64,000 nucleotides of DNA, from positions 2,356,001 through 2,420,000 of the forward strand of contig NZ_JAHOOZ010000001.1 in NCBI RefSeq assembly GCF_019075875.1. Direction: 5' to 3'. Both the position numbers and the translations under genes were made by a program. Origin of the DNA: Novosphingobium sp. G106 (GTDB lineage Bacteria; Pseudomonadota; Alphaproteobacteria; Sphingomonadales; Sphingomonadaceae). Numbering within the stretch: the stretch's first letter is position 1; every line of letters begins with the position of its first letter. Of the stretch, positions 10,156 through 27,017 are shown in pieces. The notes below the pieces were generated by a model. The model was not told the DNA's origin. It ran no database searches and saw nothing but the letters and a program-made list of their open reading frames with translations.

Positions 10156-10157
10156 CG

Positions 10158-10704: not shown

Positions 10705-10867
10705 TCCGTCCCCCGAACTGGCTTTACGCCTAGCATATTAGTGAGCGTGCCGGGGGCAAGGGTCCAGGGTCTCGACCGGGTGCGACAGCGCGTGAACAAT
10801 TGCCGCCACCCCGCCGAAGCGGATAGCATCGCGAATCAAACGAACGAAAAGAACGGGACGAGGGACC

Positions 10868-11938
10868 ATGGCCGCCGCGAGCAGCTATTTCTTCAAGATC
10901 GACGGCCCGCTGCTGGCGCCGCCGCCGCACGGCACGATGAAAGCCTGCGGCTTCGTCGAGGGCGTCGGCAACCTCGTCGGCCGTCATGGCGGGCGGCTGG
11001 AGCCGGTGATCGAGCGCCACGGCATCGACCCGCTCGCCGCGCACGACCCCGACTATGCGATCCGCTGCACCAGCGCCGCCGCGATCCTCGACGATTGCAG
11101 CCGCGCCTTCGACGACCCGCTGTTCGGCCTGCGGCTCGGCGAAAGCCTGCAGCCGGAGGTCTATGGCGCGCTCACCTCCTATGCCCGCGTCGCGCCCGAC
11201 ATGCGCCAGGCGATCAGGGTCCTGCTCGAATTCATGCCGGTGATCTACTGCCCCGGCGCCGACGTGGAATTCGTCGCCGGCAGGGAGACCGCCGAATTTC
11301 GCTGGCGGTCCAATGCCGATTTTGCCTGCGACGAGCAGGCCAACTATCTCGGTCAGTCGCAGGTGCTGCGTTTTCTCCAGGGGCTCGCCGGACCCGGCTT
11401 CCGGCCGAGCGCGGTCGCAGTCACCTCGCAGCCTTCGCGCCGCGACATCGAGGTGATGGAGCGTTTCTTCGGGTGCAAGGTCCGCGGCGGCGCCGCGGCC
11501 AACCTGATCGCCTTCCCCGCGGCCCTGCTCGACGCACGCAACACCGCGGCCAATCCCATCCTCTTCGGCCTGCTCGGCAGCTATTTCGACCAGGTCCGCC
11601 GTTCGGCCGAAGGGAGCTTCATCGACGAGGTCCGTGCTTTCGCCCGGGCAACGCTCGCCACCGGCCACTGCACGATCGAGCGCTGCGCGGTGAAGCTCGA
11701 AGCCTCTGCGCGGACGATCCAACGGCGGCTGATCGAGCAGGGAATGCGCTTCTCCGAGATCGTCGAGGAGGAGCGGATCGAGGCGGCCAAGCGCGCGCTC
11801 GGCGCGACCGGCCATTCGCTCGCCGACATCGCACTGGGCCTCGGCTATTCCGACCAGAGCAGCTTCGGCCGGGCCTTCAAGCGCTGGACCGGAGCGACGC
11901 CGCAGGCCTTTCGTGCCGCCCCGTCCCGTTTTGTATAG
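10868..11938 (+). CDS. AraC-family transcriptional regulator (Arabinose_bd-type N-terminus)
   Basis: A 356-residue regulator. Residues about 35-220 match the PF12625-like sensor domain of OruR/ArgR-type AraC proteins (start 'GRLEPVIERHGIDP', later 'RRDIEVMERFFGCKVRGG'). Residues about 250-345 form the double helix-turn-helix: 'RTIQRRLIEQGMRFSEIVEEER' region and GYSDQSSFGRAFKRWTGATP. GACGAGGG precedes ATG 10868. It is divergent from SnoaL/P450 and upstream of the P450-TIM-SDR-VOC operon, so it probably activates one or both. The inducer is unknown. Confidence 0.9.
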   Translation: MAAASSYFFKIDGPLLAPPPHGTMKACGFVEGVGNLVGRHGGRLEPVIERHGIDPLAAHDPDYAIRCTSAAAILDDCSRAFDDPLFGLRLGESLQPEVYGALTSYARVAPDMRQAIRVLLEFMPVIYCPGADVEFVAGRETAEFRWRSNADFACDEQANYLGQSQVLRFLQGLAGPGFRPSAVAVTSQPSRRDIEVMERFFGCKVRGGAAANLIAFPAALLDARNTAANPILFGLLGSYFDQVRRSAEGSFIDEVRAFARATLATGHCTIERCAVKLEASARTIQRRLIEQGMRFSEIVEEERIEAAKRALGATGHSLADIALGLGYSDQSSFGRAFKRWTGATPQAFRAAPSRFV

Positions 11939-12006
11939 CCCCTGTCGCGAACGGAAGAGACCTCCGGCGCGCGCCGGGCGATCCCTCGCCACGATGGGAG
12001 GGACCG

Positions 12007-13281
12007 ATGGACGCTGCTGACGCAATCGCGCTCGAGGATGCGACGCTCGCCGACGAGGCCGTGCTGCAGAACCCGTTCCCCTTCTATGCCCGCATGCGCG
12101 AAGAGGATCCGGTCCACTACGACAAGACGCTCCATGCCTGGCTGGTCGCGCGCTACGCCGACGTGCGCACGGTGCTGCTCGATGCCGATACCTTCTCCAT
12201 GGAGCGCGGCTGGAGCACCAACTATGCGCACGGCTTCCTCGAAGAATTCGTGGAGATCCTGGAGCGTGATGGCGGCGGCTTCTTTCCCGACGTGATCATG
12301 ACCGACCCGCCGCGGCATACCCGCGTGCGCAAGCTGATGGAGCAGGCCTTCACCGCGCACCGGGTCAAGGCGCTCGAAGCCGCGATCACCGAGCGTGTCG
12401 TGCGCTTCCTCGATGCCCTGCCGCCAGCGGGCACCATCGACGGAATCAACGATCTCGCGCTGCCGCTGACGATCGACATCCTCGCCGAGCAGCTCGGCAT
12501 TCCGCATGAATACCAGACCAAGATCGAACGCTGGACCCTCGCTTTGTCCGCCCAGGTCGGGCGCATGCAGAACCGCGAGGAAATGCAGCAGAACGCCGCC
12601 GACATCTGCGAAATGCAGCAATATATCATCGCGATGATCGAAGAACGGCGGCAGGCACCGGGCAACGACCTCGTCTCCGATCTCGTCCACGCGCGCAATC
12701 CGAGCGAGGACCGTCCGGTGCTCGATTTCGCCGAGCTGGTCGCCTGCACCCGCGCGCTGATCGGCGGTGGCAGCGAGACCACGGCCAACGGCATCGCCGG
12801 GCTGTTGCTGATGATCGCGACGCGTCCCGATGCGGCGGCGCGTCTGTTCGCGGATCTGGAAGACAGCCGCACGGTCAACCGCTTCGTCGAGGAGGCGCTG
12901 CGCCTGTTACCGCCGCCGCGCGCGCTCTCGCGGGTGGCGACGCGCGATACCGAGCTCGGCGGCGTGGCGATCCCGGAGAACGGCCAGGTCCTGATCATGT
13001 TCGCTTCGGCCAACCGCGACCAGCGCCAGTTCCCCGAACCCGAGGCGTTCGACATCGACCGGCCCAACCTGATCGGCCACGTTACCTTCGGTGCGGGCAT
13101 CCACCGCTGCGTCGGGCTGGCGCTGGCGCGGATGGAGATGGCGGTGGTCGCGCGCGAGGTGTCGCGGCATCTCGACATCGGCCTCGCGGTTCCGCTCGAG
13201 GACATCGCCTACATCCCCTCCACGTCCAACCATTCGATGCAGCGCCTGCCACTGACCTACCGGAAAAGGGAAGCCGCATGA
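12007..13281 (+). CDS. Cytochrome P450
   Basis: A 424-residue P450. The N-terminus 'DEAVLQNPFPFYARMREEDPV' is typical of soluble bacterial CYPs. The I-helix motif is LIGGGSETT, with Glu in place of the more usual Asp of the acid-alcohol pair. ExxR is EEALR, and the heme loop is FGAGIHRCVG with the Cys ligand. ATG 12007 follows GGGAGGG at the ideal distance. It is the first gene of a tight operon: its stop overlaps the TIM-barrel gene (ATGA), followed by an SDR and a VOC protein. The reaction is probably substrate hydroxylation, and electron-transfer partners are not in the window. Confidence 0.9.
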   Translation: MDAADAIALEDATLADEAVLQNPFPFYARMREEDPVHYDKTLHAWLVARYADVRTVLLDADTFSMERGWSTNYAHGFLEEFVEILERDGGGFFPDVIMTDPPRHTRVRKLMEQAFTAHRVKALEAAITERVVRFLDALPPAGTIDGINDLALPLTIDILAEQLGIPHEYQTKIERWTLALSAQVGRMQNREEMQQNAADICEMQQYIIAMIEERRQAPGNDLVSDLVHARNPSEDRPVLDFAELVACTRALIGGGSETTANGIAGLLLMIATRPDAAARLFADLEDSRTVNRFVEEALRLLPPPRALSRVATRDTELGGVAIPENGQVLIMFASANRDQRQFPEPEAFDIDRPNLIGHVTFGAGIHRCVGLALARMEMAVVAREVSRHLDIGLAVPLEDIAYIPSTSNHSMQRLPLTYRKREAA

Positions 13282-14114
13282 CCCGGCAGATCATCCTCCA
13301 CCAGCTGTGCGCCACGGGCGTCGACCCGGCCGACTTCGTCCGCATCGCGGCGGACAACGACTGCCGGAACGTCACCATGTTCGCCAACAACGGCAACAGC
13401 ACCCTGCCCAATTCGAACACCGGACTCAGCTATCCGACGACGATCACGGCCGAGTCCAAGGCGGAGGTGCGGCGCGCGCTGGCCGATGGCGGGGTCGCGC
13501 TCGACGGCGTCGAGTTCTTCCCGATCACCGCCGAAGTGGACTTCGAGCTCTACAAACCCGCAGTCGCGCTGGGGGCCGAACTCGGCGCAAGGCGCGCCGT
13601 CGGCCACGTCTTCATCCTCGACGATGCGCTGGTGGTCGATCGGCTCGGCGAATTCTGCGATCTCGCCGAAAGTTTCGGCCTGAAATTCACCTCAGAGTTC
13701 TGCCCGATGACGGCCGGCAATCCGTCGCTGGCGCGGGCAAAGTGGCTCATCGACCAAGTGGGGCGCGAGAGCTTCGCCATCGGCGTCGACATGCTCCATG
13801 CCGTCCGCAGCGGCGTGACGGCGGCGGACCTCGCCGCGCTCGACCCGCGCTATTTCGGCATCGTCCAGATCTGCGACCACATCGGCACGCACCAGTCCGG
13901 CGATTACATCAAGGAAGTGCACAACCGCGAGGTTCCGGGACAGGGCGGCCTGCCGCTCCACGAGCTGCTGAACGCCGTGCCCGCGACGATGGCGATCGAG
14001 GCGGAAGTGCCCGCCGCGCATCGCCGCGCCGCCGGCGTCACCGCGGCCGAGCATGTGCGCGACGTGCTGGCCGGGACACGCGCCGTGGTCGCCGGCCTGA
14101 CGCCGAGACGCTAG
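13278..14114 (+). CDS. Sugar phosphate isomerase/epimerase-like TIM-barrel protein (AP endonuclease 2 superfamily)
   Basis: A 278-residue protein with the xylose isomerase-like TIM-barrel pattern. Likely metal-binding residues sit in strand ends such as FTSEFCP, 'GVDMLHAVRSG', 'IVQICDHIG' and the C-terminal MAIEAEVPA. Members include sugar epimerases, myo-inosose dehydratases and enzymes of secondary catabolism, so the exact reaction is unknown. It starts at ATG 13278 inside the P450 stop (ATGA) and is followed 10 bp later by an SDR, indicating a role in the same pathway. A non-sugar substrate is likely in this setting. Confidence 0.72.
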   Translation: MTRQIILHQLCATGVDPADFVRIAADNDCRNVTMFANNGNSTLPNSNTGLSYPTTITAESKAEVRRALADGGVALDGVEFFPITAEVDFELYKPAVALGAELGARRAVGHVFILDDALVVDRLGEFCDLAESFGLKFTSEFCPMTAGNPSLARAKWLIDQVGRESFAIGVDMLHAVRSGVTAADLAALDPRYFGIVQICDHIGTHQSGDYIKEVHNREVPGQGGLPLHELLNAVPATMAIEAEVPAAHRRAAGVTAAEHVRDVLAGTRAVVAGLTPRR

Positions 14115-14124
14115 GAGAAGCGGC

Positions 14125-14973
14125 ATGGCGAACGAACTGGCAGGCAAGGTGGCGGTGATCACCGGCGGGGCGACCGGGATCGGCCGCGGCATCGTCGAGC
14201 TCTTCGCCGAGGAAGGCGCGCGCATCGTAGTCGGCGATGTCGACGAGGCGGCGGGCACCGCGCTCGCCGCAGAGCTTGGCGACAGGGTCCGCTTCCAGCG
14301 TACCGACGTGGCCGAACGCGAACAGGTGGGGGCTCTGGTCGACCGCGCCATTTCCGAGTTCGGGGGGCTTCACGCGATGGTCAACAACGCGGCGATCTCG
14401 GGCCGGTTCGTCAACCGCTTCCTCGACGACGATCTCGCCGACTTCGACCGCGTCATGCACGTCGACGTCGCGGGCACGATGTACGGCACCCAGTTCGCCG
14501 CGCGGCACATGCGCGAGAACGGCGGCGGTTCGATCGTCAACCTCAGTTCGATCGCATCGCTCAATCCCGGCTTCGCGATCGCGATCTACCGGGCGGCGAA
14601 GGCGGGCATCAACAATTTCACCCGGTCGATGGCGATCGACCTCGGCGAGTACGGCATCCGCGTCAACGCCATCGCGCCAGGGGCGGTGCCGACGAAGATG
14701 GGCAGCTTCGCCGATCCCGCGCTGCCGCCCGAGCAGTCGGCCGAACTGGAACGCCAGCTCGACACGGCCTGGCTCGCCAGCCAGCCGATCAAGCGCCGCG
14801 GGGCTCCGCGCGACATCGCCAACGCCGCGCTGTTCTTCGCCAGCGACCGCTCGACCTATGTCACGGGCCAGGTCCTCGGCGTCGACGGCGGCGGCACGGC
14901 GGGCGAGATGACCAACCGCAATGCGATGATGACAAGCATCCGAGACGCGTTCTACCGTGACTTGAAAGGCTGA
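14125..14973 (+). CDS. Short-chain dehydrogenase/reductase (classical SDR)
   Basis: A 282-residue classical SDR. The cofactor motif is GGATGIGRG, with an acidic residue after strand 2 in VVGDVDE suggesting NAD preference. NNAAISG, the catalytic serine in NLSSIAS, YRAAK and the C-terminal TGQVLGVDGG are all present. It would oxidise an alcohol produced by the upstream P450, an inference from order. AGGAG lies before ATG 14125. The C-terminus is about 25 residues longer than the minimal family. Confidence 0.9.
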   Translation: MANELAGKVAVITGGATGIGRGIVELFAEEGARIVVGDVDEAAGTALAAELGDRVRFQRTDVAEREQVGALVDRAISEFGGLHAMVNNAAISGRFVNRFLDDDLADFDRVMHVDVAGTMYGTQFAARHMRENGGGSIVNLSSIASLNPGFAIAIYRAAKAGINNFTRSMAIDLGEYGIRVNAIAPGAVPTKMGSFADPALPPEQSAELERQLDTAWLASQPIKRRGAPRDIANAALFFASDRSTYVTGQVLGVDGGGTAGEMTNRNAMMTSIRDAFYRDLKG

Positions 14974-14985
14974 AGGGACGCACCG

Positions 14986-15510
14986 ATGGTCTATCTGCCG
15001 AGCCGCAACTACATGCAGATCGCCTGGGTCGTGCCCGATCTCCACGCCGCGATCGAGCACTGGGCGCGGCAGGCCGGCGTCGGGCCGTTCTTCTACTTCG
15101 ACGATGTCGTCTACGAAAACGCGATCTATCGCGGCGAGCCCTGGCAGCCGGTGAAGTTCCACGCCGCAATCGCGCAGGCCGGGGCGATGCAGATCGAATT
15201 GATCGAGCAACTCGAGGAAGGCCCCTCGATGTTCCGTGAACTGGTGCCGCCGGGCCAGAGCCGGCTCCACCACATGTCGACTTATACCGACGACTTCGAG
15301 AGCGACCTCGCGCACTACCGCAAGAGCGGCGCGGAGATCGTATTCAGCGGCCTGATGAAGGGCGCGCCGGTCTGCTGGCTCGACACCACCGCCACGCTCG
15401 GCTTTCTAACCGAGCTTATCACCGCCAATCCGATCAAGGAGCAGGTCTTCGCGATCTTCAAGGAGGCCGCGGCGAACTGGGACGGTGATGATCCTATCAG
15501 GCGGCTTTGA
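14986..15510 (+). CDS. VOC/glyoxalase-superfamily protein
   Basis: A 174-residue protein with two beta-alpha-beta-beta-beta modules. The first starts MQIAWVVPDLHAAIEHWARQAGVGPFF and carries IELIEQ. The second starts LHHMSTYTDDFESDLAHYRKSGAE and ends LGFLTELI. This is the vicinal oxygen chelate fold, with probable metal ligands His (LHHM) and the Glu of IELIEQ and LTELI. Related proteins are methylmalonyl-CoA epimerases, glyoxalases and extradiol enzymes; which one is not resolvable. GAAGGGA precedes ATG 14986. It is the last gene of the P450-TIM-SDR-VOC operon. Confidence 0.78.
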   Translation: MVYLPSRNYMQIAWVVPDLHAAIEHWARQAGVGPFFYFDDVVYENAIYRGEPWQPVKFHAAIAQAGAMQIELIEQLEEGPSMFRELVPPGQSRLHHMSTYTDDFESDLAHYRKSGAEIVFSGLMKGAPVCWLDTTATLGFLTELITANPIKEQVFAIFKEAAANWDGDDPIRRL

Positions 15511-15726
15511 GAGCCGGATCGATCGGACGAATACAAAACCGCAACAACCCGCTCTTGCCCGACCGACTTTGTCGGCGCTACTTGAATTTGGGTACGGCGA
15601 GCGCCGCTCTTCCGGCACGAACGCACCGGCGAAAACGCTGGAAAGCCTGTTGCTCAAACAACCTGCTGAAAATCGAAACTTTTCAGCGACAATCGGCCTC
15701 CTTTTCCCCTCTTGTGGCCTGCTGAC

Positions 15727-15752
15727 GGAACCGAAGCATTCGATGAGCGTAT
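15727..15752 (+). promoter_or_regulatory. Candidate EcfG-type (general stress) promoter of the kai operon
   Basis: GGAAC at 15727-15731, 16 bp, then CGTATT at 15748. The alphaproteobacterial EcfG consensus is GGAAC, 16-17 bp, CGTT; here the -10 matches 3 of 4. It lies about 50 bp before the first gene of the kai operon. Pattern match only. Confidence 0.4.
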
Positions 15753-15800
15753 TACGAATGTAAATACGGGGCTTTGGGAATCCAAAAAAAGCGAGGCTGA

Positions 15801-15998
15801 ATGCGCAAGCCTGTGACTTTCAGGTTCGATCGCGAGTTGCTTGAGCGCGCGCGTCAGCACGCGAATGCCGACAATCGCACCCTCACCAACTACGTCGAAA
15901 CCGCGATTATTCGCGCACTCGAACATTTCGAGGCCACTGCGCACGAAAGCCGCGTCGCGGAAGGCTGCAATGGAAACAGCATGGGGAGAAACCATTAA
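15801..15998 (+). CDS. Small ribbon-helix-helix (CopG/Arc-like) protein
   Basis: A 65-residue protein. KPVTFRFDRELLERARQHA then 'NRTLTNYVETAIIRALEHFE' reads as the beta strand, helix A, turn and helix B of a ribbon-helix-helix DNA-binding dimer. The last 20 residues are polar and unlike the family. GCGAGG lies before ATG 15801. The TAA is followed immediately by the GTG of kaiC, so the two are co-transcribed and probably co-translated. RHH proteins usually repress their own promoter. It could be a toxin-antitoxin-type antitoxin, but no toxin is adjacent. The link to Kai is by position only. Confidence 0.65.
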   Translation: MRKPVTFRFDRELLERARQHANADNRTLTNYVETAIIRALEHFEATAHESRVAEGCNGNSMGRNH

Positions 15999-17699
15999 GT
16001 GACTATCGTTGACGTTCCCGAGAGCGCTTCCGGCGCATTGCTGAAGTCGCCGACGGGCATCAAGGGCCTGGATGATCTCACGCTGGGCGGTCTGCCCAGC
16101 GGACGGCCATCGCTTCTGTGCGGCGCAGCCGGCTGCGGCAAGACGCTTTTCGCCATGACCTTCCTCGTGAACGGCGCGACGCGCTACGGCGAGAATGGCG
16201 TATTCGTCAGCTTCGAGGAGCGATCGGACGATCTGGTCGACAATGTCGCCTCGCTCGGGTTCGATGTCGGCGAGCTGGTCGAAGAAGGGCGCATCGCCAT
16301 CGACTATGTCCGGATTGAGCCTGCCGAGATCGAAGTCAGCGGCGAATATGACCTCGAAGCGCTCTTCGTTCGGCTTGGCTACGCGATCGACAAGATCGGC
16401 GCAAAGCGGGTCGTGCTCGACACGCTGGAAGCGCTGTTTTCCGGTCTCACCGATCAGGCGGTTCTGCGCGCCGAACTCAGGCGGCTTTTCGCCTGGATCA
16501 AGGACAAGGGCGTCACCGCCATCATAACCGCGGAGCGCGGCGAGGGTCAGCTTACCCGCTACGGCATCGAAGAGTATGTGTCGGATTGCGTCATCCTGCT
16601 CGACAACCGGGTGCTCGACCAGGTCACCACGCGGCGGCTGCGCGTCGTCAAATACCGCGGCTCGGCCCACGGCACGAACGAGTATCCGTTCCTCATCGAC
16701 GATCGCGGCATCAGCGTCATGCCGATCACCTCGGCGAGCCTCGAGCACCAGACCTCTTCGGAAGTGGTTCCCACGGGTATCGCCGGCCTCGACAAGATGT
16801 TCGGGATCGGTGGCTTCTTCCGCGGATCGAGCGTGCTGATTTCCGGTCTGGCGGGGACCGGCAAGTCGACCTTCAGCGCCGCCTTCGCCAACGCCGTCTG
16901 TTCGCGCGGCGAGAAGTGCCTCTACTTCGCCTTCGAGGAATCCCCGGCGCAGATCGTTCGCAACATGCGCTCGGCCGGGATCGATCTGCAGCGCCATGTC
17001 GATCAAGGATTGCTGCGTTTCGAGGCCGCACGCCCCAGCCTTTTCGGTCTCGAAATGCATCTCGCGCGGATGAACCGCGACATCGAGGAATTCGCCCCCA
17101 GCGCCATCATCGTCGATCCGATCTCCGCATTTCGGGGGGTACCATCGGAAATCCACGCGACCATGCTTAGGCTCGTCGATATTTGCAAGAAGCACGGTGT
17201 AACGGCGGTGCTGACCAGCCTGTCGCTTGCGGCCGATCATGTCTCGGAAGCTGACCGCAGCGTATCCTCGCTGATGGACAGCTGGATTTCGCTGACCGAT
17301 GTCGAGGCCAATGGCGAGCGCAACCGCGTGATGTATGTCCTCAAGTCGCGGGGCATGAAGCATTCGAACCAGATCCGCGAATATCTGCTGACCGACAACG
17401 GGATCACGCTCATCGAACCCTACATTGGCCCGAATGGCGTGCTTACGGGGGCCGCTCGACTGGCGCAGGAAGGGTTCGAGCGGGCAGAAGAGCTCGAGCG
17501 CCAGCAATTGCTGAATCAACGCCGGCGCGCTCGCGACCGCAAGCGCGAGACGGTCAAGCGGCAGATTGCCGAACTTCAGGCCTCGCTGGATGCTGAAGAA
17601 GAGGAGGCTGACCTCGGGTTCAGCCAGGATGATGAACGCGAAGGCTTCATCCAGTCCAACCGCAGCGCCATGGCTGCCAAACGAGGAGTGGGCCAGTGA
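15999..17699 (+). CDS. kaiC: KaiC-family circadian clock-like ATPase/kinase
   Basis: A 566-residue double RecA-like protein. The CI domain has Walker A GAAGCGKT (42-49), catalytic Glu73-Glu74 in SFEERSD and Walker [14 protein letters not shown] has Walker A GLAGTGKS (283-290), Glu313-Glu314 in FAFEESP and Walker [10 protein letters not shown]. The autophosphorylation segment aligns as SVSSLMDS, placing Ser423-Ser424 where cyanobacterial KaiC has Ser431-Thr432. A charged coiled-coil-like tail follows (about 485-545, rich in R, E and Q). It starts with GTG 15999, abutting the RHH stop, and its stop overlaps kaiB (GTGA). KaiC hexamers hydrolyse ATP and autophosphorylate. Without KaiA here, an hourglass or stress-timer role is more likely than a full oscillator. 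Confidence 0.92.
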
Positions 17700-18025
17700 G
17701 CGAGGACGTCGAGACCTCAAGCGATGTGGCCATTCCCGGGCACTACAATTTGCGCCTTTATGTCGCCGGGCAAACGCCCAAATCATTAAGCGCGATCGCC
17801 AATCTGAAGTCGATCTGCGAGGAGCACCTCGCGGGACGCTATACGGTCGAGGTCATCGATCTCATCGAGAGTCCACAACTGGCGGCCGGCGACCAGATTC
17901 TGGCCGTTCCCACCCTCGTGCGCCGCCTGCCGCCGCCGATAAAGCGCGTCATCGGCAACCTGTCCGACACCGAGCGGGTCCTGGTGGGTCTCGACATCGT
18001 GCCTATCGAGGGGACCGAGACATGA
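17696..18025 (+). CDS. kaiB: KaiB-family protein, copy 1
   Basis: A 109-residue thioredoxin-like fold protein. [20 protein letters not shown], '[16 protein letters not shown]' and [20 protein letters not shown] are the KaiB signature, with an N-terminal extension of about 15 residues. KaiB binds KaiC during its phosphorylation cycle. It starts with GTG 17696 inside the kaiC stop and overlaps the second kaiB by ATGA. It is about 40-45% identical by eye to the next gene, suggesting an old tandem duplication with specialised roles. Confidence 0.9.
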
Positions 18026-18342
18026 GCTGGCCAGCTCCGTCGGAAACCGGGCGCTATGTCCTGCGGCTGTTCGTCACCGGCACCACGAGCCGTTCGCAGC
18101 GCGCCATCGCCAACATGCGGAGGATCTGCGAACAGGAACTGGCCGGCAAATACGATCTCGAAATCATCGACGTCTATGAAAAGCCGGAGGCAACCCGCGA
18201 ACTCCAAGTGGTCGCGACGCCGACCTTGGTCAAAGTGCTTCCCGAGCCTCTCCGCCGGATCATTGGTGACCTCTCGGACAAGGAAAAGGTCCTCGCGGGT
18301 CTCAATCTAGCGCCGAGCTCAGCCGGTACGAGTAAGCCCTAG
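18022..18342 (+). CDS. kaiB: KaiB-family protein, copy 2
   Basis: A 106-residue KaiB paralogue. [20 protein letters not shown], '[21 protein letters not shown]' and [20 protein letters not shown] are present. It keeps the lysine-, arginine- and proline-rich C-terminal strand pattern of KaiB. ATG 18022 overlaps the stop of copy 1. The histidine kinase starts 2 bp after its stop. Two adjacent kaiB genes with one kaiC allow competing KaiB partners, for example one for KaiC and one for the kinase. That is inference. Confidence 0.9.
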
Positions 18343-18344
18343 CC

Positions 18345-19991
18345 GTGACGGCCGCGGACCAGAGCACCCGGATCGCGGAGCTCGAAGGCCTTCTCCAAGA
18401 GGCCAACGAAACGCTCGACGCGATCCGTAACGGCGAAGTCGACGCCATCGTCGTGGGCGGTTCCGCAGGCCAGTTTGTCTACACCCTGGAGAACGCCGAC
18501 CGCCCCTACCGCGTTCTCGTCGAGCAGATGAAAGAGGGTGCCGTCACGCTCAATGAAGACTGCATCATACTCTATGCGAACCGCAGTTTCAGCGAGTTGG
18601 TCGACCAACCGAGTGGGCGCCTGATCGGCTCCTGCCTTTACGATCATGTGGTCGACCCCGCGCCGCTCGAAGCCATACTGACAGGCGAACAACCGGAAAC
18701 CACCGAAGTGACGCTCATCGGAGCCGACGAGCGGCTTACGCCGGCCAACATGTCGATCGTCGAGCTACAGGTGGAAGCCGGTGCACCGCGCATGTTCTGC
18801 AGCATCGTCACCGATCTGACCGAGATGCGCCGCGCGGAAGATACGCTTCGCCAGGTCCAAAAGATGGACGCGGTCGGGCAGCTCACGGGCGGCGTCGCAC
18901 ACGATTTCAACAACCTCCTGATGGCGATCTCGAGCAGCCTGGAAATGCTGGAGAAGCGGATTCCACACGACCCGCAGACCAGCCGCCTCATCGAGAATGC
19001 GAAGCAGGGCACCCGGCGCGGCGCGGCGCTGACCCAGCGGATGCTCGCGTTCGCGCGCCGGCAGGATCTCAAGGCCGAGCGCGTCGATCTCGCCGCGTTG
19101 ATCCAGGGAATGACCGAGCTCGTGCAACGGACCTTGGGCCCGACATGGCCTCTCGAGCTGGAATTCGCGGACCCTCTGCCGCCCGTGCTTGCCGACGCCA
19201 ATCAGCTCGAGATGGCTCTGCTCAACCTGGCCGTGAACGCGCGCGATGCCATGCCCGACGGTGGCCCGATCCGAGTATCCGCGGAACGGGTGGTCGTGGC
19301 CGCCGACCAGATCGAAGCACTGGCTCCCGGAACCTTTATTTGCCTTGGCGTGATCGACGAAGGCGAAGGCATGGACGCCGACACCCTGGCGCGCGCGACC
19401 GAGCCGTTCTTCACGACGAAGGGTGTGGGCAAAGGCACTGGCCTCGGCCTGTCGATGGTTCACGGCTTGGCAAAGCAACTCGGCGGGACATTCGTCCTGC
19501 AAAGCTCCCCGACAGCCGGCACTACTGCGCGTCTTTGGCTTCCCGCGGCCAACAGTATCGACGCCGAATATTCCGAGAGCGTCACGAAACAGACTACGCC
19601 CATCGATTCTCGACCACTGAAGATACTCGCGGTCGATGACGACTTTCTTATTCGGATGAATATAGCCGACATGCTCCAGGATATGGGGCACACCGTCTTC
19701 GAAGCAGGCTCCGCTGAAGAAGCTTTGGAGACCTTGCAGCTCCAACCAGATGTCGAGCTCCTGATCACCGATCAGGCGATGCCGAACATGACCGGTACCG
19801 AATTGATCCAGCGCGTGACCAACGATCGCCCCAGCCTCCCGATCATCCTTGCGACGGGATATGGAGAACTTCCGACGAATTCGCCGAGGGAGATAGTCAA
19901 ACTCGGCAAGCCGTTCAGTGAGGAAGACCTGGCCGCGGCGATAGCGCGTGCCTTGGCTTCTTCGATGCTCGCGCAGGAACGAGCGGGCTAG
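18345..19991 (+). CDS. Hybrid sensor histidine kinase with PAS and C-terminal receiver
   Basis: A 548-residue cytoplasmic kinase with no membrane segments. An N-terminal coiled segment (RIAELEGLLQEANETLDAI) is followed by a PAS domain (about 50-165). The dimerisation/phosphoacceptor helix has His186 in GGVAHDFNN, and the NtrB-like ATPase has N-box NLAVNARDAMPDGG, GEGMD and GTGLGLSMV. The receiver (about 425-540) has Asp476 in LLITDQAMP and Lys in KLGKPFS. GTG 18345 lies 2 bp after kaiB copy 2, so it belongs to the kai operon and is the likely output or input kinase, as SasA-type kinases are in cyanobacteria. It lacks the KaiB-like sensor of SasA. Confidence 0.88.
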   Translation: MTAADQSTRIAELEGLLQEANETLDAIRNGEVDAIVVGGSAGQFVYTLENADRPYRVLVEQMKEGAVTLNEDCIILYANRSFSELVDQPSGRLIGSCLYDHVVDPAPLEAILTGEQPETTEVTLIGADERLTPANMSIVELQVEAGAPRMFCSIVTDLTEMRRAEDTLRQVQKMDAVGQLTGGVAHDFNNLLMAISSSLEMLEKRIPHDPQTSRLIENAKQGTRRGAALTQRMLAFARRQDLKAERVDLAALIQGMTELVQRTLGPTWPLELEFADPLPPVLADANQLEMALLNLAVNARDAMPDGGPIRVSAERVVVAADQIEALAPGTFICLGVIDEGEGMDADTLARATEPFFTTKGVGKGTGLGLSMVHGLAKQLGGTFVLQSSPTAGTTARLWLPAANSIDAEYSESVTKQTTPIDSRPLKILAVDDDFLIRMNIADMLQDMGHTVFEAGSAEEALETLQLQPDVELLITDQAMPNMTGTELIQRVTNDRPSLPIILATGYGELPTNSPREIVKLGKPFSEEDLAAAIARALASSMLAQERAG

Positions 19992-20089
19992 TCGCTCGCG
20001 ATTTTTCCCGAGTAGCTATGCGGCCATGAACGAATGGCGGGTTTCCGGATGGCCCGCACGAAATCTTCGGCACTCTCCACGATCGCCTC

Positions 20090-20509
20090 CTAGGCCAAGA
20101 ATTCCTCCACGCTCGACACGAAGCGCGCCCAGGCGGGTTCGGTCGGCATGAGCAGATGATTGCGGCTCTCCAGCACGACGAACTGCGCGTTGCGGATCGT
20201 CGAGGCCATCGTGCGACCGGCCGAGAACGGCGCTACCGCGTCGTCGCGGGCATGCAGTACCAGCGTCGGCACCGAAACTTGCGCCATCACGTCGCGCACG
20301 TCGATGTCGGAGAATGCTTCGGACAGCCGTATCGCATTGGCCGGCGAAGTGGTCATGCGTTGCAACTCGTTGAACCAGTCCATCTCGACCTGGCTGGCTT
20401 CGGGGAAGAACAGGGTGGTGAAGACCTGACGGAAAGCCGGGTTGTTCTGGCCCCAGCCCGTCCGCATCAGCGTGTTCATCGCCTCGCGCCGCTCCTGCTC
20501 TCCTGGGAT
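20090..20509 (-). pseudogene. Alpha/beta hydrolase, C-terminal fragment only
   Basis: About 139 residues ending in EEFLA. They match the last third of a hydrolase family: 'RREAMNTLMRTGWGQNNPAF', the acid strand VPTLVLHARDDAVAPF, and the catalytic His in LESRNHLL. The nucleophile elbow and N-terminal two thirds are missing. At about 20509 homology stops, and plus-strand histidine-kinase sequence begins at once. In this family the hydrolase often follows an adenylate cyclase or winged-helix domain. It is interpreted as a deletion remnant, not a functional enzyme. Confidence 0.7.
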
Positions 20510-20514
20510 GTTCC

Positions 20515-20928
20515 GCCGCCGCCAGCGGGCCGCATACCGCGCAGCCGGTCCAGATCGAGCGCAAGCGAACCGCGTTCGACAAGCACGGCCTCGCGATCGG
20601 CGAAGGCCGCGGCGCGCGGGATAGAGTTCGAACACAGCCGGCCCGCGGGCCTTCCGGCAACGATCTTCACCGACCAGAAGCGGCTGCGCCAGATCCTGAT
20701 CAACCTCGTCTCGAACGCGATCAAATACACGCCCGCAGGCTCGGCCTCGCTGCACGTCCACTGGCGCAATCCCGTGGCCGAATTCATCGTCCAGGATACC
20801 GGCGTCGGCATCGATCCGACCAGCATCGACCGCATATTCGAGCCGTTCGAGCGGCTGGAGACCGTGCGCGGGCAATCCGGCGTCTGGCTCGGCCTCACCA
20901 TCACGCGAATGCTGGTCGACATCACTCT
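20515..20928 (+). pseudogene. Histidine kinase ATPase-domain remnant
   Basis: The plus strand encodes 'AAARGIEFEHSRPAG', then the N-box DQKRLRQILINLVSNAIKYTP, DTGVGIDPTSIDRIFEPFER and the end of the G2 region, LGLTITRMLVDI. The histidine region upstream is unreadable in one frame, with a suspected frameshift near 20600. The final strand after the G2 box is absent: the frame breaks at about 20925 into receiver-domain sequence. No start codon or ribosome site fits. It is a decayed hybrid kinase whose domains were joined by an internal deletion. Confidence 0.65.
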
Positions 20929-21230
20929 CCATACTGCGCGATTTCGTGGAAGGCGAAGGATATCTGTCGGAAGTCGCGGTCAATGGTGAGGAAGCCTTGC
21001 TGCTGCTGGGCGCAGTCTCGCCTGACATCATCCTGCTCGACGCCGTGATGCCGGGGCTCGATGGTTTCGAGACCTGCCGGCTGATCAAGGCCCGAGAGGG
21101 CGCCGCGCACATTCCCGTGATCTTCATGACCGGCCTTTCGGAGACCGAGCATGTCGTCCAGGGACTCGAAGCAGGCGGAGTCGACTATGTCACCAAGCCG
21201 CTGGCGCTCGATGCGCTGGTCGGCGAGCGC
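20929..21230 (+). pseudogene. Response-regulator receiver remnant
   Basis: It starts within LRDFVEGEGYLSEVAVNGEE and includes the phosphoacceptor Asp in IILLDAVMPGLDGF, the Thr region in VIFMTGLSE and the Lys in YVTKPLALD. The first strand with its acidic pair is missing, and the last helix breaks off at ALVGER, about 15 bp before the stop of the dienelactone hydrolase on the other strand. It was probably once the receiver of the adjacent kinase remnant. It is not expected to be functional. Confidence 0.6.
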
Positions 21231-21244
21231 CAACGGTCTGGCGA

Positions 21245-21958
21245 TCACCCCCGCAACATCGTCGTGAACAACGCCAAGGTGCCTGCCCAGCTCACAGCGT
21301 CGGCGATAGCGTCATAGGCGATACCGGGCATCCCGGCAGGCACATGAGGGTTGGTGAAGCTGTGCGCCACCTTGGCAAACTCGACGATATGGAACTCGGC
21401 CTCGGCGGCGCTCAGCTCATTGCGTAGCGCATCGATCGTATCGACGGGGGCATAGGGATCGGCAAGCCCGCAATAGGCGGCAATGACGGGCTTCACGTTA
21501 CCCTTTTTCGCCCTGTCATGCGTCGTCAGCGAGCCGTGATAGGATACTACCGCCTTCGCGTCCCGGCCGCTGCGCGCCAGTTCGAGCACGCAGGCCCCGC
21601 CCATGCAGAAGCCGAAAGCGCCGATCCGCGCGGGGTCAGCGTCAGGCAAAGCCGCGATTGCATCGAACCAGGTGACCACCCGTTCCCGGAAGAACTCGCC
21701 GTCTGCCGTGAGCTTCTCATAGGGTCTCAGATCGCCAGGCTGGATGCCGCGGGCGTCGAGCCCGAACATATCGGCGACTACTCCCAGATAGCCGAGTTTG
21801 GCCATCGCCTTGGCCTTGTCGCATTCGAACGGCGCGAGTCCCGCTCCGGAATGATAGATGATCACGGTCGGGAAGGGACCTTCGCCCTCCGGCCGGGCAA
21901 CATAACCCTCGAGGGCATGGCCTCCGTGGTTGAGGGGGATCGGTTGCAAACCTTCCAT
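21245..21958 (-). CDS. Dienelactone hydrolase family protein
   Basis: A 237-residue alpha/beta hydrolase. The nucleophile is Cys in GFCMGG, the acid lies in the CGLADPYAP region, and the catalytic His is in VAHSF. The Cys nucleophile is the hallmark of dienelactone hydrolases, which open lactone rings such as 4-carboxymethylene-but-2-en-4-olide. ATG 21958 is chosen because GAAGAGAGG precedes it; an in-frame extension to 22168 has no site. It is intact although it lies between gene remnants and an insertion sequence. Its substrate is unknown, and it may belong to the catabolic functions upstream. Confidence 0.85.
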   Translation of the reverse strand: MEGLQPIPLNHGGHALEGYVARPEGEGPFPTVIIYHSGAGLAPFECDKAKAMAKLGYLGVVADMFGLDARGIQPGDLRPYEKLTADGEFFRERVVTWFDAIAALPDADPARIGAFGFCMGGACVLELARSGRDAKAVVSYHGSLTTHDRAKKGNVKPVIAAYCGLADPYAPVDTIDALRNELSAAEAEFHIVEFAKVAHSFTNPHVPAGMPGIAYDAIADAVSWAGTLALFTTMLRG

Positions 21959-22169
21959 ATATTCCTCTCTTCTCGCGCCTTTCTCCAGCCGCCCCGGAAC
22001 CTGCGTTCGACACGGTTGGACACCGAGATAGCCCATCGGGCGAGCTGCGACGATCATGCCCCAGACTAAGTCAGCCGTCGAGAAACCTTGCGGATGACAC
22101 ACCCGCCAGCCTGTCTGTCTGCGTCCTTTGACCCTAAACGGACGCCGCCTTGATGGGCAACCAGTCACC

Positions 22170-22177
22170 TAGGTCAT
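22170..22177. repeat. Target-site duplication, left copy
   Basis: TAGGTCAT, identical to 23606-23613; borders the left end of the insertion sequence. Confidence 0.85.
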
Positions 22178-22202
22178 GATCGTGCCCCATGGCGTGGTGT
22201 AG
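22178..22202. repeat. Left terminal inverted repeat of the IS256-family element
   Basis: Begins GATCGTGCCCC and ends TGGTGTAG. It matches the reverse complement of 23581-23605 at 19 of 25 positions. Confidence 0.85.
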
Positions 22203-22246
22203 GATCGCGGGCGTGGCCACGTCGATCTCCGGCTAAGCCGGATTGA

Positions 22247-23464
22247 TCAGGCTGCCATGCTTGGCAACGTGATGATGGCATTGTCGCTCAATCCCGCGAC
22301 GCTCTCAAGGCTCATGTAGCGGCAGCGCTGGACCGCCCATTCGTCGTTCTGTTCCAGGAGGATAGCGCCGACGAGGCGGGTTATCGCTTCATCGTTGGGG
22401 AAGATTCCGACGACATCGGTCCGCCGCTTGATCTCACCGTTGAGGCGTTCGATGGGGTTGTTGCTGTGAAGCTTGGTGCGATGCTGCGGCGGGAAGGTCA
22501 TGTAGGCCAGGACGTCCTCTTCGGCGCTGTCCATCAAGGCAGAGAGCTTGGGGACCGAGGGACGAAGCTGGTCTGCAACTGAGCGCCATTGAAGCTTTGC
22601 GGCCTCAGGTGTCTCCTGCGCAAAGGCCGTGGCGATGAACGCCGATACGACCCGGCGCCCGCTCTTTCCGGCATGCGCCAGGGCATTGCGCATGAAGTGG
22701 ACGCGGCAGCGCTGCCAGGTTGCGCTGAACACCTTGGCAATGGACGCCTTGATGCCCTCATGGGCATCGGAGATCACGAGCTTCACGCCGCGCAGGCCTC
22801 GGCGAGCCAGGCTACGCAGGAAGTCGGTCCAGAAGGTCTCGGCTTCGGAATGGCCGATCGCCATGCCGAGCACTTCGCGGCGACCGTCACTGTTGACGCC
22901 GACGGCGATGATGACGGCGACCGACACAATCCGGCCTGCTCGCCGGACCTTGATGTAAGTCGCATCCATCCAGACGTATGGCCAATCGCCCTCGATGGGC
23001 CGCTCGAGGAAGGCTTTCACGCGCCCGTCGATTTCTCCGCAGAGCCGGCTTACCTGGCTCTTCGAGATGCCGCTCATGCCCATGGCCTTGACAAGATCAT
23101 CGACCGATCGCGTCGAGATTCCCTGGATGTACGCTTCCTGGATGACAGCGGTCAGCGCCTTCTCGGCCATCCGCCGGGGTTCCAGAAATCCGGGGAAGTA
23201 ACTGCCTTTGCGCAGCTTGGGGATGCGCAGCTCGACCGTGCCCGCCCGGGTCTCCCAGTCGCGATCCCGGTAGCCATTGCGCTGGGCCAGGCGCTCGACG
23301 TCCTTCTCGCCGTAAGCGGCCCCGGTCAGGCCGCCGACCTCCATCTCCATTAGTCGCCGCGCGGCAAAGCCGATCATATCGCGCAGAAAATCCGCATCCG
23401 GGCTCTTTCCCACCAGCGCCTGCAGGTCCATCATGTCTTCGGTCATCGGAACGTCCTCGTTCAA
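22247..23464 (-). CDS. IS256 family transposase
   Basis: A 405-residue mutator-type transposase. The DDE triad is visible as Asp in VWMDATYIK, Asp in VISDAHEG and Glu in [13 protein letters not shown]. The family's '[16 protein letters not shown]' segment follows the Glu. Full length, with no internal stop. ATG 23464 is taken; a nearby in-frame ATG 15 bp inside (MTEDMM) is an alternative. It catalyses movement of the surrounding 1428-bp element by cut or copy transposition through the 25-bp ends. Confidence 0.95.
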
Positions 23465-23580
23465 GTTGAGTGTTGCAACCCAACCTTATCCGAAGATCTC
23501 CGATGACCACCCGCGAACCTGACCGGCCGCTACAGCGCTATATGGAAAGCGCGCGTCCGGTCAGCTTCGCTACCCTCGAG

Positions 23581-23605
23581 CTACACCACCATCCGGGGCA
23601 CGACC
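23581..23605. repeat. Right terminal inverted repeat of the IS256-family element
   Basis: CTACACCACC...GGGGCACGACC. It pairs with 22178-22202, with six mismatches in the middle. Confidence 0.85.
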
Positions 23606-23613
23606 TAGGTCAT
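23606..23613. repeat. Target-site duplication, right copy
   Basis: TAGGTCAT, identical to 22170-22177. Confidence 0.85.
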
Positions 23614-23736
23614 TGGTGATATGACGAATATTTTCCTCCAGGCCCGAGAAAATCTGCAAGAAGCAGTTGGCATTTTTGGTAGCGGAACAATGCTCCTATC
23701 AGCCGACTGCGGAGCAATTCCCCAAATCTTCAAAAT

Positions 23737-24468
23737 TCAATTGTCACGATATCGCGCCAGGGTTTCAGCAATAGCCAGCAGCACTTCGGGGCGGCATTGA
23801 ACCATCAGGTGGCTGCCCGGCACTTCGATTGCACGGGCGTGAGGATCACGACAGATCGATCCGTTCACGAAGCCGTCGGTCCGACTCCAGATCGCCGTGG
23901 CCGGAACGGGTAGCGGCGCCGCGGCTTCGGCTGCACGCGCCTTGACCGAAGCATCGCTGATACGATCGCCGGTCAGCAGTTCGAACGCGCGCCATACGTT
24001 GGTGGCCGTCGGAGGCCCGGCATAGGGCGCGCTGACGGTAATGACTTCGCGAACCATGTCGGGGCAGCGATGCGCAATCAGCCGAGCCATAATTCCACCC
24101 AGGGACACACCGATCAGCGTTACCGCCTCGCCCGTATCCGAATGAATCGCAGCCACACGAGCGATCAGCCGCTCGGCCTCCGAACCGATCGCGCGCGTGC
24201 CGAGGTTTCGCCCGAGTTCCCAGCCGAACACGCGGTAGCCGAGGCGCTGAAGATAGCGCGCCATGACGAAATTCGAACGGTCGGCGTTCGCCAGGCCGGG
24301 CAACAGCAATATTGGCCGGCCATCGCCGCGCGAGGCGCGGGCCAGCGCCGGTTGTGCGAGCAGCAGCGACACGATCGTCCATGCCGCGCGCGGCGCCTCT
24401 GCAAGAAAGAGCAATTTGGACGGAGGAAGCGCGGAAATGGCGTTCACTGGGGATCCGTCATCGAGCAC
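23737..24468 (-). CDS. Alpha/beta hydrolase, lipase/esterase-like
   Basis: A 243-residue protein. GDGRPILLLPGLANADRSNF is the beta-strand and oxyanion region of lipases. The nucleophile elbow is GVSLGG, an acid lies in SRTDGFV, and a His is in GSHLMVQ. N-terminal LFLAEAPRAAWTIVSLLLA may be a membrane-associated helix. The start is GTG 24468, and a second GTG at 24444 is possible. It is monocistronic between the insertion sequence and the GGDEF-EAL gene. Probably a cytosolic or membrane-attached esterase; the substrate is unknown. Confidence 0.75.
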   Translation of the reverse strand: MLDDGSPVNAISALPPSKLLFLAEAPRAAWTIVSLLLAQPALARASRGDGRPILLLPGLANADRSNFVMARYLQRLGYRVFGWELGRNLGTRAIGSEAERLIARVAAIHSDTGEAVTLIGVSLGGIMARLIAHRCPDMVREVITVSAPYAGPPTATNVWRAFELLTGDRISDASVKARAAEAAAPLPVPATAIWSRTDGFVNGSICRDPHARAIEVPGSHLMVQCRPEVLLAIAETLARYRDN

Positions 24469-24654
24469 CGGCTGGTTATGTGAGATAGAGATCGCTACCT
24501 ATCATAAATCCCTCGATGCCAAGGCTAAAACGGTATCGCGCCGGCGCGATCAACGAAAGATTGCCTTGGAGCCTTAAGAATATCCACGATCTTCCGTCCG
24601 CGAGAGCGCGCGGCATTTACGCGGCGCTAACCTGTCTCTCGGTACAAGCACGGC

Positions 24655-27017
24655 GTGACCCAGCAACAATCTGTAACCGCATCGCTTCCCAAGGAACTGC
24701 CCGTGCTGGCAGTACTCGGCCTGACCGATCCCAGCGACGGCGACTGGGCGCGTTTGCGCGGCCTGCAATATTCCTGCCTGCCGCGTGCCATGCTCTCGCG
24801 CCTCTGCGCCCAGGGCATGGCCGGTCTAGCGGCCTCGAGCCTGCTCGCGGGCCATATCCATATCGCTATTGTCATCGCCTGGCTCGCCGCGCTCGGCGGT
24901 TCGCTGTTTTACGGCACGCGAATCGACAACACGCTGGCCGACGCCGACCGTCGCCGCATGTCGAGCGAGGAGGTCAATCGCCAGACGATCGGCGCGATCA
25001 TCAATGCGCTGGTCTGGGTCGTGCCGATCGCCCTGTCCACTTTGTACGTCAATCCCGAGACCCAGCTCAAGCTGTGGACCGTGGTCGCCATGCTGATGAC
25101 TGCCTCCGCGATCCTGCTCCCGGGCGTGCCGATGGGCACACTGATGTTCACCGGCATCGTCGGCGGTGCGGCCGTGGGAAGCTTCCTCGTCACCGGGGCC
25201 TTCGACATGGCGCTGGTCGCCGGGGGCTTCGTCCTCACGGTATGCCTCGGCGCGATCGAGGGCGCGCGGCGCTTTCTTGAAACCAAGGTGGCCGAAGCCG
25301 GCATGGTCGAGAAGAGCGAGGTCGTATCGCTGTTGCTGCGTGAGTACGAGGAAGGCGAGGCCGACTGGCTCTGGCAGACCGACACTGCCCGCCGCGTGCG
25401 CGGGGTATCCCCCGCTTCGCCTATGCGCTGGGGGTCGATCCCGCGGACATCGACGGCCAGCCCTTCATCCAACTGATCGCCGGTCCCGCCTGGGACACCG
25501 GCCAGTTCCCTTCGAGCCTCCACGACCTCGCCGAGCGGCTGAAGCGCCGTGAGAGCTTCTCCAACCTGCTGGTCCGCGTGACGATCGGCGGGCAGCAGCG
25601 CTGGTGGGAACTCTCTGGCACGCCCAGGCTAGACGATCACGGCAATTTCGACGGCTTCCGCGGCGTCGGCTCCGACGTCACCGAACAGCGCGAAAGCTCG
25701 GACAAGATCGCCTATCTGGCGCGCTATGACACGCTGACCGGCCTCCCCAACCGCCTGATGCTCAACGAGGCGCTGGCCGATGCGCTGGCCTATGCCGAAA
25801 AGTGGCGCACGCGCTGCGCCTTCCTGATGATCGACCTCGATCGCTTCAAGGCGGTCAACGACACGCTCGGGCATCTGGTCGGCGACCAGCTCCTCGCCAA
25901 GGTTTCCGACCGGCTGCAGGAAGAGCTGACCGACAACGAGGTCTGCGGACGTCTCGGCGGCGACGAGTTCGCCATCGTCATCCGCGACGCCTCGGACCTG
26001 GCGCGCATCGAGCAAGTCGCCGAGCGCGTCATCGAGCGGCTCTCGGCGCCCTACGAAGTCGATCACCACACGCTCTATGTCGGCGCTTCGATCGGCTCGG
26101 CACTCGGCCCGCGCGACGGCAACACGGTCGAAACGCTGATGCGCAACGCCGACCTCGCGCTCTATCGCTCGAAGGATTCCGGCGGCAACGCGCACTGCAC
26201 CTACGAGCCTTCGCTCCACGCCCATGCCGAGGAGCGCCGCAAGCTCGAATTCTCGCTGCGCCGCGCGCTCGACCGCAACGAATTCGTCCTCCACTACCAG
26301 CCGGTGGTCGATGCCGAGAGCGAGCGGATCCTGAGCTTCGAGGCGCTGGTGCGCTGGAACAGCCCGGAACACGGCTTCGTCAGCCCGGGCAAGTTCATCC
26401 CGCTGGCCGAGGACACGCGGCTCATCGTGCCGATCGGCGAATGGGTGCTGCGCGAAGCCTGCCGCGAGGCAATCAAGTGGCCTGGCGACACCAAGGTCGC
26501 GGTCAACGTCTCGGGCGAGCAACTGCTCGACACCAATTTCGTCGCCAGCGTGGTCGGCGCGCTGTCGAGCAGCGGCCTGCCCGCGCACCGGCTCGAAGTG
26601 GAAGTGACCGAAAGCATCTTCCTGCGCGACGCGACCATGGCGCGCACGGCGCTGGAAAAGGTCATGGCGCTGGGCTGCGGCGTCGCGCTCGATGATTTCG
26701 GCACCGGCTATTCGTCACTCGGCTACCTTCGCCGGCTGCGCTTCTCGACGATCAAGGTCGACCGCAGCTTCGTCCAGGGCGCGGCGACGGGCAATCCGGA
26801 AAGCCTTGCGATCATCCGCGCCGTCGTCGCCATGGCCGACAGCCTCGAGATGTCGACCACGGCCGAGGGTGTCGAGAACGAGGCCGAGCTCGAGATCGTT
26901 CGCAAGCTCGGCTGCCGCAAGATCCAGGGCTTCTACTTCGGCCGGCCGATGCCCGCCGACGAGGCCAGCGGCCTGTTCCGCCAGTGGGACGTGATGCGCA
27001 GCGATTCGGCGGCCTGA
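24655..27017 (+). pseudogene. Membrane-anchored PAS-GGDEF-EAL cyclic-di-GMP protein, frameshifted
   Basis: The first frame encodes about five hydrophobic segments (residues 55-210: GMAGLAASSLLAG, IINALVWVVPIAL, VVAMLMTASAILLPG and others), then a PAS start WLWQTDTARRVRG. At the C5 run 25409-25413 the frame is lost. With six Cs it continues VSPRFAYALGVDPADIDGQP into the long downstream frame. That frame has GGDEF (RLGGDEFAIV) and EAL (FEALVRWNSPEHGF), including DDFGTGYSSL. The protein would be about 787 residues with both cyclase- and phosphodiesterase-type motifs. GTG 24655 has no clear ribosome site, so the start is uncertain. Probably a consensus deletion rather than true loss. Confidence 0.8.

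Follow-up and report, generated by a model that had tools for sequence, protein, structure and literature searches.

A KaiA-less kaiBC operon in Novosphingobium with a putative ribbon-helix-helix gene and an EcfG-like promoter element at its head

Introduction

Timers built on KaiC and KaiB have been described in several bacteria, and the papers reporting them are drawn on here and below in excerpt. In Methylorubrum (Methylobacterium) extorquens AM1, where the kai genes play a role in resistance to ultraviolet light and temperature, the order kaiC1-kaiB2-kaiB1-kaiR1 has been reported and KaiC1 carries two phospho-serines, S432 and S433 (PMC8069551). Rhodobacter (Cereibacter) sphaeroides combines a KaiB with a KaiC bearing a Ser-Ser pair and a C-terminal extension, and lacks KaiA; its KaiC assembles into a dodecamer through a C-terminal coiled coil and acts as an hourglass that needs no KaiA and is driven by the ATP/ADP ratio (PMC10076222). 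Rhodopseudomonas palustris likewise has no kaiA, and its kaiC stands first, followed by kaiB and a PAS kinase thought to share the promoter (PMC4794148). In the present study, we analysed a five-gene kai operon of Novosphingobium sp. G106 lying in a stretch of 64,000 nucleotides, hereafter the window (contig NZ_JAHOOZ010000001.1, positions 2,356,001 to 2,420,000). The operon is a real, conserved variant of the known KaiBC timer with what looks like a new regulatory head, consisting of a small putative ribbon-helix-helix (RHH) gene and a 43-bp element in front of it.

The operon shares with M. extorquens the succession of kaiC, two kaiB genes and a kaiR gene as well as the two serines; this comparison is by description, and the domains of KaiR1 are not stated in the excerpt. 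The R. sphaeroides system, similar in its KaiC, its KaiB and its lack of KaiA, differs in having one KaiB, a kinase of the HWE class and no RHH gene upstream in the record of plasmid pB. R. palustris agrees in lacking kaiA and in a kaiC that precedes kaiB and a PAS kinase, whereas a single kaiB is described and no RHH protein is mentioned in the part of the account used (PMC4794148). All five genes in the same order were found on plasmid p3 of Pararhizobium qamdonense (NZ_CP119568.1), a predicted-conjugative plasmid on which the RHH protein is 33% identical to that of the window over the alignment and the GGAAC element is missing.

Results and Discussion

The operon and its KaiBC core

Five genes, all on the plus strand, follow one another almost without a spare base. 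The first (15801..15998, ATG start, stop ending at 15998) encodes a small putative DNA-binding protein of 65 aa, YlcI/YnfO-like and a candidate autorepressor. It is followed with no gap by kaiC (15999..17699, GTG start), whose product is of the KaiC2 type, with two ATPase domains, Ser423/Ser424 and a C-terminal tail. Then come kaiB1 (17696..18025) and its divergent paralogue kaiB2 (18022..18342), each overlapping the preceding gene by 4 bp, and, after a 2-bp gap, the gene of a hybrid histidine kinase with the architecture PAS-HisKA-HATPase-REC (18345..19991, GTG start). These genes are real and tightly coupled. Pfam finds the KaiC ATPase domain twice in KaiC (E 1.2e-115 for the protein), the KaiB domain in each KaiB (E 1.8e-25 and 9.2e-28), and PAS, HisKA, HATPase_c and Response_reg in the kinase; in KaiC, the two Walker A motifs begin at positions 42 and 283, FEER lies at 72 and FEES at 312, and the serine pair occupies 423/424. 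An earlier note, written from the letters of the window, had described five genes joined by overlaps or gaps of 0-2 bp, a two-domain KaiC with intact Walker, Glu-Glu and Ser-Ser sites, two KaiB paralogues and a PAS hybrid kinase, and all of this was recovered, with Pfam domains, motif positions and junctions in agreement. The start that it gave for the feature, 15727, falls outside the RHH gene and is the first base of a promoter-like GGAAC.

The double-domain KaiC with Walker A and Glu-Glu sites in both halves is as expected of the KaiC2-type KaiBC systems. The Ser-Ser pair marks the KaiC2 group, KaiC1 and KaiC3 mostly carrying Ser-Thr (PMC5520375), and 59 of the 66 KaiC rows compared have Ser-Ser at the phosphorylation site (Ser-Thr in 7). 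The best matches of the window KaiC in the PDB are 8dba, 8fwi and 8db3, all derived from the R. sphaeroides protein (PMC10076222), and its residues are identical to those of the R. sphaeroides 2.4.1 protein at 299 of 558 aligned positions. In this alignment the counterparts of Ser423/Ser424 are S413/S414. The allosteric network published for R. sphaeroides (PMC10076222) comprises eight residues, of which six are kept (S413, S414, W419, Y436, L438 and R450, in the numbering of that species), the exceptions V421 and V449 being Ser and Ile in the window; at 421, the 2.4.1 record too departs from Val, with Leu. The tail can be aligned with the R. sphaeroides KaiC up to residue 536 of the window protein. 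In a KaiC tree that took in pieces with at least 440 aligned residues, the two proteins share a 13-row clade with a support of 89/85, below the starred level. Both KaiBs match solved KaiB structures in the PDB, including 8fwj from R. sphaeroides.

KaiA (PF07688) gave no match at E <= 0.001 in the whole genome, in a search that was positive, among 14 controls, in Synechococcus elongatus only. With KaiA absent from the genome in this search, the operon stands outside the KaiABC circadian oscillators; the earlier note was thus right about the missing kaiA, and its suggestion of a KaiBC system of the hourglass or stress kind is, judging by homology, probably correct as well. At the same threshold the genome (7.23 Mb, 5 contigs) holds two KaiB matches, both in the operon. 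A second two-domain KaiC-like ATPase is encoded at C1:4645348-4646724 (L004, L006, L087), and the genome search at E <= 0.001 placed no KaiB match beside it.

The four-gene core and its distribution

We collected 52 species-genome loci and counted the 46 with at least 2.6 kb after kaiC; the order is kaiC-kaiB-kaiB-kinase in 33, kaiC-kaiB-kinase in 12 and kaiC-kaiB with no detected kinase in 1, while four of the six uncounted loci, with less than 2.6 kb after kaiC, still show the full order. KaiC-tree rows with the four-gene core come from Bacteroidota, Verrucomicrobiota and Pseudomonadota. Since the order occurs in 33 of 46 loci and similar orders are already in print, among them that of M. 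extorquens (PMC8069551) and kaiC-kaiB followed by a kinase or a GGDEF/EAL protein, noted in 2011 (PMC3164672), the core is of a known kind, and the earlier claim of an undescribed system finds no support for the operon as a whole. What looks new is the operon head, that is, the RHH gene and the element before it. Searches of the open-licence literature, judged by title, returned archaeal papers only for kaiC with ribbon-helix-helix, none on an RHH-kai link for kaiC with CopG, Arc, YlcI or HicB, and none on a sphingomonad kai locus for Sphingomonas or Novosphingobium with kaiC or kaiB. Among the matches listed, no paper joined kaiC, EcfG and the general stress response, and no title pointed to an RHH repressor of kai, which does not establish its absence from print.

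Within the Sphingomonadaceae, kaiC was found at E <= 1e-60 in 6 of 397 genomes, with up to 3 candidates scored per genome in these KaiC searches; the 9 genomes of this set that belong to the window's genus, its own aside, yielded none. In the genus of genome G325, 2 of 10 genomes have kaiC at E <= 1e-120, one with the RHH gene (L062) and one without it (L064). A second sphingomonad architecture, kaiC-kaiB-HWE kinase as in R. sphaeroides, is present in L063, L064 and L065 (L088, L089, L085); unlike these kinases, that of the window belongs to the HisKA class. Coordination of the general stress response has been ascribed to kinases of the HWE/HisKA2 class (PMC12148442). In L071, the kaiC at 1284-2946 is split between two frames, with one piece at 1284-1487 and the other at 1501-2946, owing to a frame break or an assembly error.

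The RHH gene is linked to kai in its close family

The linkage was assessed in 74 kaiC loci with upstream DNA, namely 57, 7 and 9 loci from three sets plus the window; loci of the 57-locus set have at least 150 bp upstream and a KaiC N-terminus, and L061, L067 and L068 are duplicates of the window or L062. The RHH gene lies directly 5' of kaiC in 4 of the 74, belonging to two orders: the window, L009 (a Novosphingobium metagenome-assembled genome), L062 (another Sphingomonadaceae genus) and L081 (the Pararhizobium plasmid). In L086, a longer copy of L062, the RHH gene and kaiC overlap by 4 bp. A profile of 14 RHH members, at a cut-off of 1e-5, matched 2 of 397 family genomes (G000 and G325) and 1 of 385 class genomes (G000), always beside kaiC, and found nothing in the genomes of either set that lack this kaiC; up to 16 candidates were scored per genome, and the cut-off could miss relatives as divergent as L081. 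In the scan of kaiC loci, the only other match was in L012 (10.7 bits, far from kaiC). The earlier note would have given up its proposal had the RHH gene proved unlinked to kai in other genomes, and in the close relatives L009, L062 and L081 it is linked. As to the five-gene order which that note wished to see sought across genomes, an RHH gene directly before kaiC does recur, but only in these 4 of 74 loci, and the core without it is common.

Further afield, 13 more RHH relatives are known from protein sequence alone, and at E <= 0.01 four plasmid records carry a relative, of which the Pararhizobium one, the only one examined for kai, has kai. We discarded the idea that the gene is phage-borne: a relative on one viral contig (L095, 1607-1834) shares LTNYVETAL and is 45% identical over residues 4-36, and no kai gene was recognised by eye in the stretch examined. 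Distant relatives away from kai thus seem to exist, so the linkage is claimed for the close family. A single clade of 7 rows in the KaiC tree (support 99/99) takes in all four RHH loci along with two Rhodanobacter rows and L071, and these last three possess the four-gene core but no RHH gene; the pattern needs two changes, hence an early gain with loss or two gains.

At the family level, the assignment made in the earlier note gains support: the YlcI/YnfO model picks up all 17 RHH members at E <= 0.01, with 8e-8 as the best value, 14 match DUF6364 and 2 match RHH_1, and the Pararhizobium member is annotated as YlcI/YnfO family. The window protein taken singly scores below the curated cut-offs (23.7 of 30 bits for YlcI/YnfO, 19.4 of 27.3 for DUF6364). 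Between the window and L009, the rates of nonsynonymous (dN) and synonymous (dS) change over codons 1-43 are 0.14 and 1.10, with a dN/dS of about 0.13, which suggests purifying selection on the RHH domain; the tail varies among family members. A rival view is that the KaiBC-kinase stress module is an ordinary one and that the gene before it plays no part in the timer, being there by accident or as a decayed antitoxin. Its weak likeness (19.3 of 50 bits) to the model of a RelB-like antitoxin and the existence of the core elsewhere without it would speak for this, and yet the gene occupies the same place in four loci of two orders, shows the low dN/dS and is preceded by a conserved element, so that we consider this view unlikely. 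The antitoxin identity as such was rejected, the score being far below the cut-off and the next gene being kaiC, not a toxin.

A conserved element with an EcfG-like promoter and a candidate operator

In front of the RHH gene lies a bipartite element of 43 bp, CGGAACC-N15-CGTATTrCnAtyGTAmATACG (15726..15768, plus strand), which reads as an EcfG-like promoter with an overlapping inverted repeat. It was found before the RHH gene in three sphingomonad loci only (window, L009 and L062), where 25 of its 43 columns are identical; the runner-up among ungapped triples has 15, and the maxima of six shuffles are 13-14. The identity resides in CGGAACC (7/7) and in the right-hand part (16/21), the spacer holding 2/15. 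GGAAC (15727..15731, plus strand), the candidate EcfG-type -35 box, stands 16 bp before CGTA (15748-15751), with the same spacing in the three loci. The consensus in Sphingopyxis is GGAAC-N16-CGTT (PMC7083833), from which the window departs in the last base only: the -35 box and the spacing are as expected, and the -10 box is CGTA instead of CGTT-like. For S. melonis, the motif has been given as GGAAC-N17-20-GTT, with 3'-end variation among the listed targets (PMC6599016).

At C1:5.99 Mb the genome carries NepR, EcfG-like and PhyR genes, and the EcfG consensus seems to hold in it, because GGAAC-N15-18-CGTT occurs 5 times in the 10 kb around these genes and twice in the whole 64-kb window. Upstream of kai, GGAAC-N15-18-CGT[TA] is present in 4 of 7 sphingomonad loci (window, L009, L062 and L065) vs 0 of 67 others, the chance expectation being 0.5 summed over the 57-locus set. 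L065 has a perfect GGAAC-N16-CGTT and no RHH gene, which hints independently that in Sphingomonadaceae the stress regulon includes kai. The idea that KaiBC loci carry the motif in general was rejected, given its restriction to sphingomonads.

The right-hand part of the element contains the inverted repeat CGTATT-N9-AATACG (15748..15768), a candidate RHH operator lying across both the -10 position and the expected start; the L062 copy lacks pairing at the innermost position of its arms. A 21-bp pattern was built from the window, L009 and L062, which therefore match it exactly by construction, and was searched in G000 (7.2 Mb) and G325. Each genome has one exact site, at kai, and no second match within 2 mismatches. 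At 3 mismatches there are 2 sites in G000 and 1 in G325 (reversed control, 0), located just before a cytochrome-like open reading frame (ORF), inside an ORF, and between LysR-like and universal-stress-like ORFs (named by reading, with no profile); they show no evident kai link and were judged to be chance. The half-site CGTATT.C.A..G precedes all 4 RHH genes, including the Pararhizobium one, and in 71 loci besides the window (both strands, 1.35 Mb) it has 7 matches, 3 of them before RHH genes. From this co-occurrence we infer that the RHH protein pairs with the repeat.

The element might instead be recognised by some other factor, another extracytoplasmic function (ECF) sigma factor or a host repressor, in place of EcfG and the RHH protein. 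The CGTA box would suit such a factor, the genome may carry other ECF sigma factors, and the pairing of repeat and RHH is drawn from co-occurrence; the distribution of the half-site argues the other way, and on the whole we find this explanation doubtful, though not negligible. The earlier note, for its part, had seen in the RHH protein a possible transcriptional output of the timer, and one may imagine an output arm controlled by KaiC/KaiB or the kinase and regulating a set of genes. RHH proteins bind DNA, and this one is encoded within the operon. On the other hand, profile scans found no receiver domain in it, the 3-mismatch sites lie in or near ORFs with no evident kai link, and in neither of the two genomes does the operator pattern have another match at 2 or fewer mismatches, a result that points to autoregulation and is more in keeping with a dedicated autorepressor than with an output regulator. 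Because RHH proteins can bind degenerate sites, this is no proof; we nonetheless regard an output arm as quite improbable, and a general output regulator was dropped as the leading idea.

A proposed stress-induced, autorepressed hourglass

The reading that we favour, at somewhat better than an even chance, is a KaiA-free KaiBC hourglass of the KaiC2 type that is induced by stress, autorepressed by its own RHH protein and read out through the kinase. The steps of binding, phosphorylation and regulation that compose it would run as follows. Transcription would start from the EcfG-type general-stress promoter (15727-15751), and the RHH protein, the first product of the mRNA, would bind the repeat over the -10 and start region and repress, the consequence being a bounded pulse of timer proteins after stress. 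KaiC would phosphorylate itself at Ser423/Ser424 without KaiA through an exposed A-loop and the tail, as in R. sphaeroides, and would thereby read the ATP/ADP state; one of the KaiBs would bind phosphorylated KaiC, promoting hydrolysis and reset, and the co-encoded PAS hybrid kinase may read the KaiC/KaiB state and signal to a phosphorelay partner. The layout is that of the autoregulated Arc, CopG and antitoxin-type repressors, in which a small RHH gene heads the operon and a repeat lies over the promoter; there, the partner is a toxin or a replication gene, whereas here it is a timer. A more elaborate version strikes us as very improbable: the RHH protein and KaiC would form a complete loop, both transcription-translation and post-translational, in which the binding of KaiC (or KaiB) modulates how tightly the RHH protein holds its operator, and stress would thereby set off a pulse or an oscillation that times itself in the absence of KaiA.

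Several observations weigh against the autorepressed hourglass. The AlphaFold monomer of the RHH protein is one long helix (11-55) and not a clear ribbon-helix-helix (pLDDT 75, pTM 0.37), and the RHH profile has no PDB chain match at E <= 1; the RHH label is accordingly weaker than those of the other genes, and the fold is not proved. The -10 box CGTA is not among the alternative boxes in the excerpted account of S. granuli (PMC7083833), at the Pararhizobium locus just the left half of the repeat is present and GGAAC is missing, and the motif is absent upstream of kai in L063, L064 and L066, which are also sphingomonads. The RHH gene is lacking beside kaiC-kaiB-kaiB-kinase in Rhodanobacter (L010, L011) and in L069, L070, L071, L096, L097 and L099, and beside kaiC-kaiB-kinase in L098 and L100-L104, so the timer can dispense with it. 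Finally, no output target was found.

Surroundings of the operon

When the ORFs of the window at 9500-26000 were compared with L009, L010, L011, L086 and L081, no neighbourhood was conserved beyond the operon, the sole flank matches being one 29% hit to a short-chain dehydrogenase/reductase and antisense frames of kaiC. Taken with the relative on a predicted-conjugative plasmid, this fits transfer of the operon as a unit. Just 3' of the operon, at 20156-21317, an HATPase_c piece (ORF 20156-20989) and a receiver (ORF 20946-21317) lie in different frames and look like a decayed hybrid kinase; a minus-strand ORF with a weak abhydrolase match at its end overlaps them. A Mutator-family transposase is encoded on the minus strand at 22247-23464, 2.3 kb downstream of the operon.

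Conclusions

The operon bears on two questions about KaiA-less Kai systems, namely what turns them on and which role they play in non-photosynthetic bacteria. In this operon, the RHH protein at the head probably has its site on the stress-type promoter, by which the timer would control its own production. If this is true, a dedicated repressor together with an EcfG-type promoter would offer a testable answer for one lineage, with the 43-bp element usable as a handle for reporters, and would place the timer within the alphaproteobacterial general stress response and let it limit its own dose.

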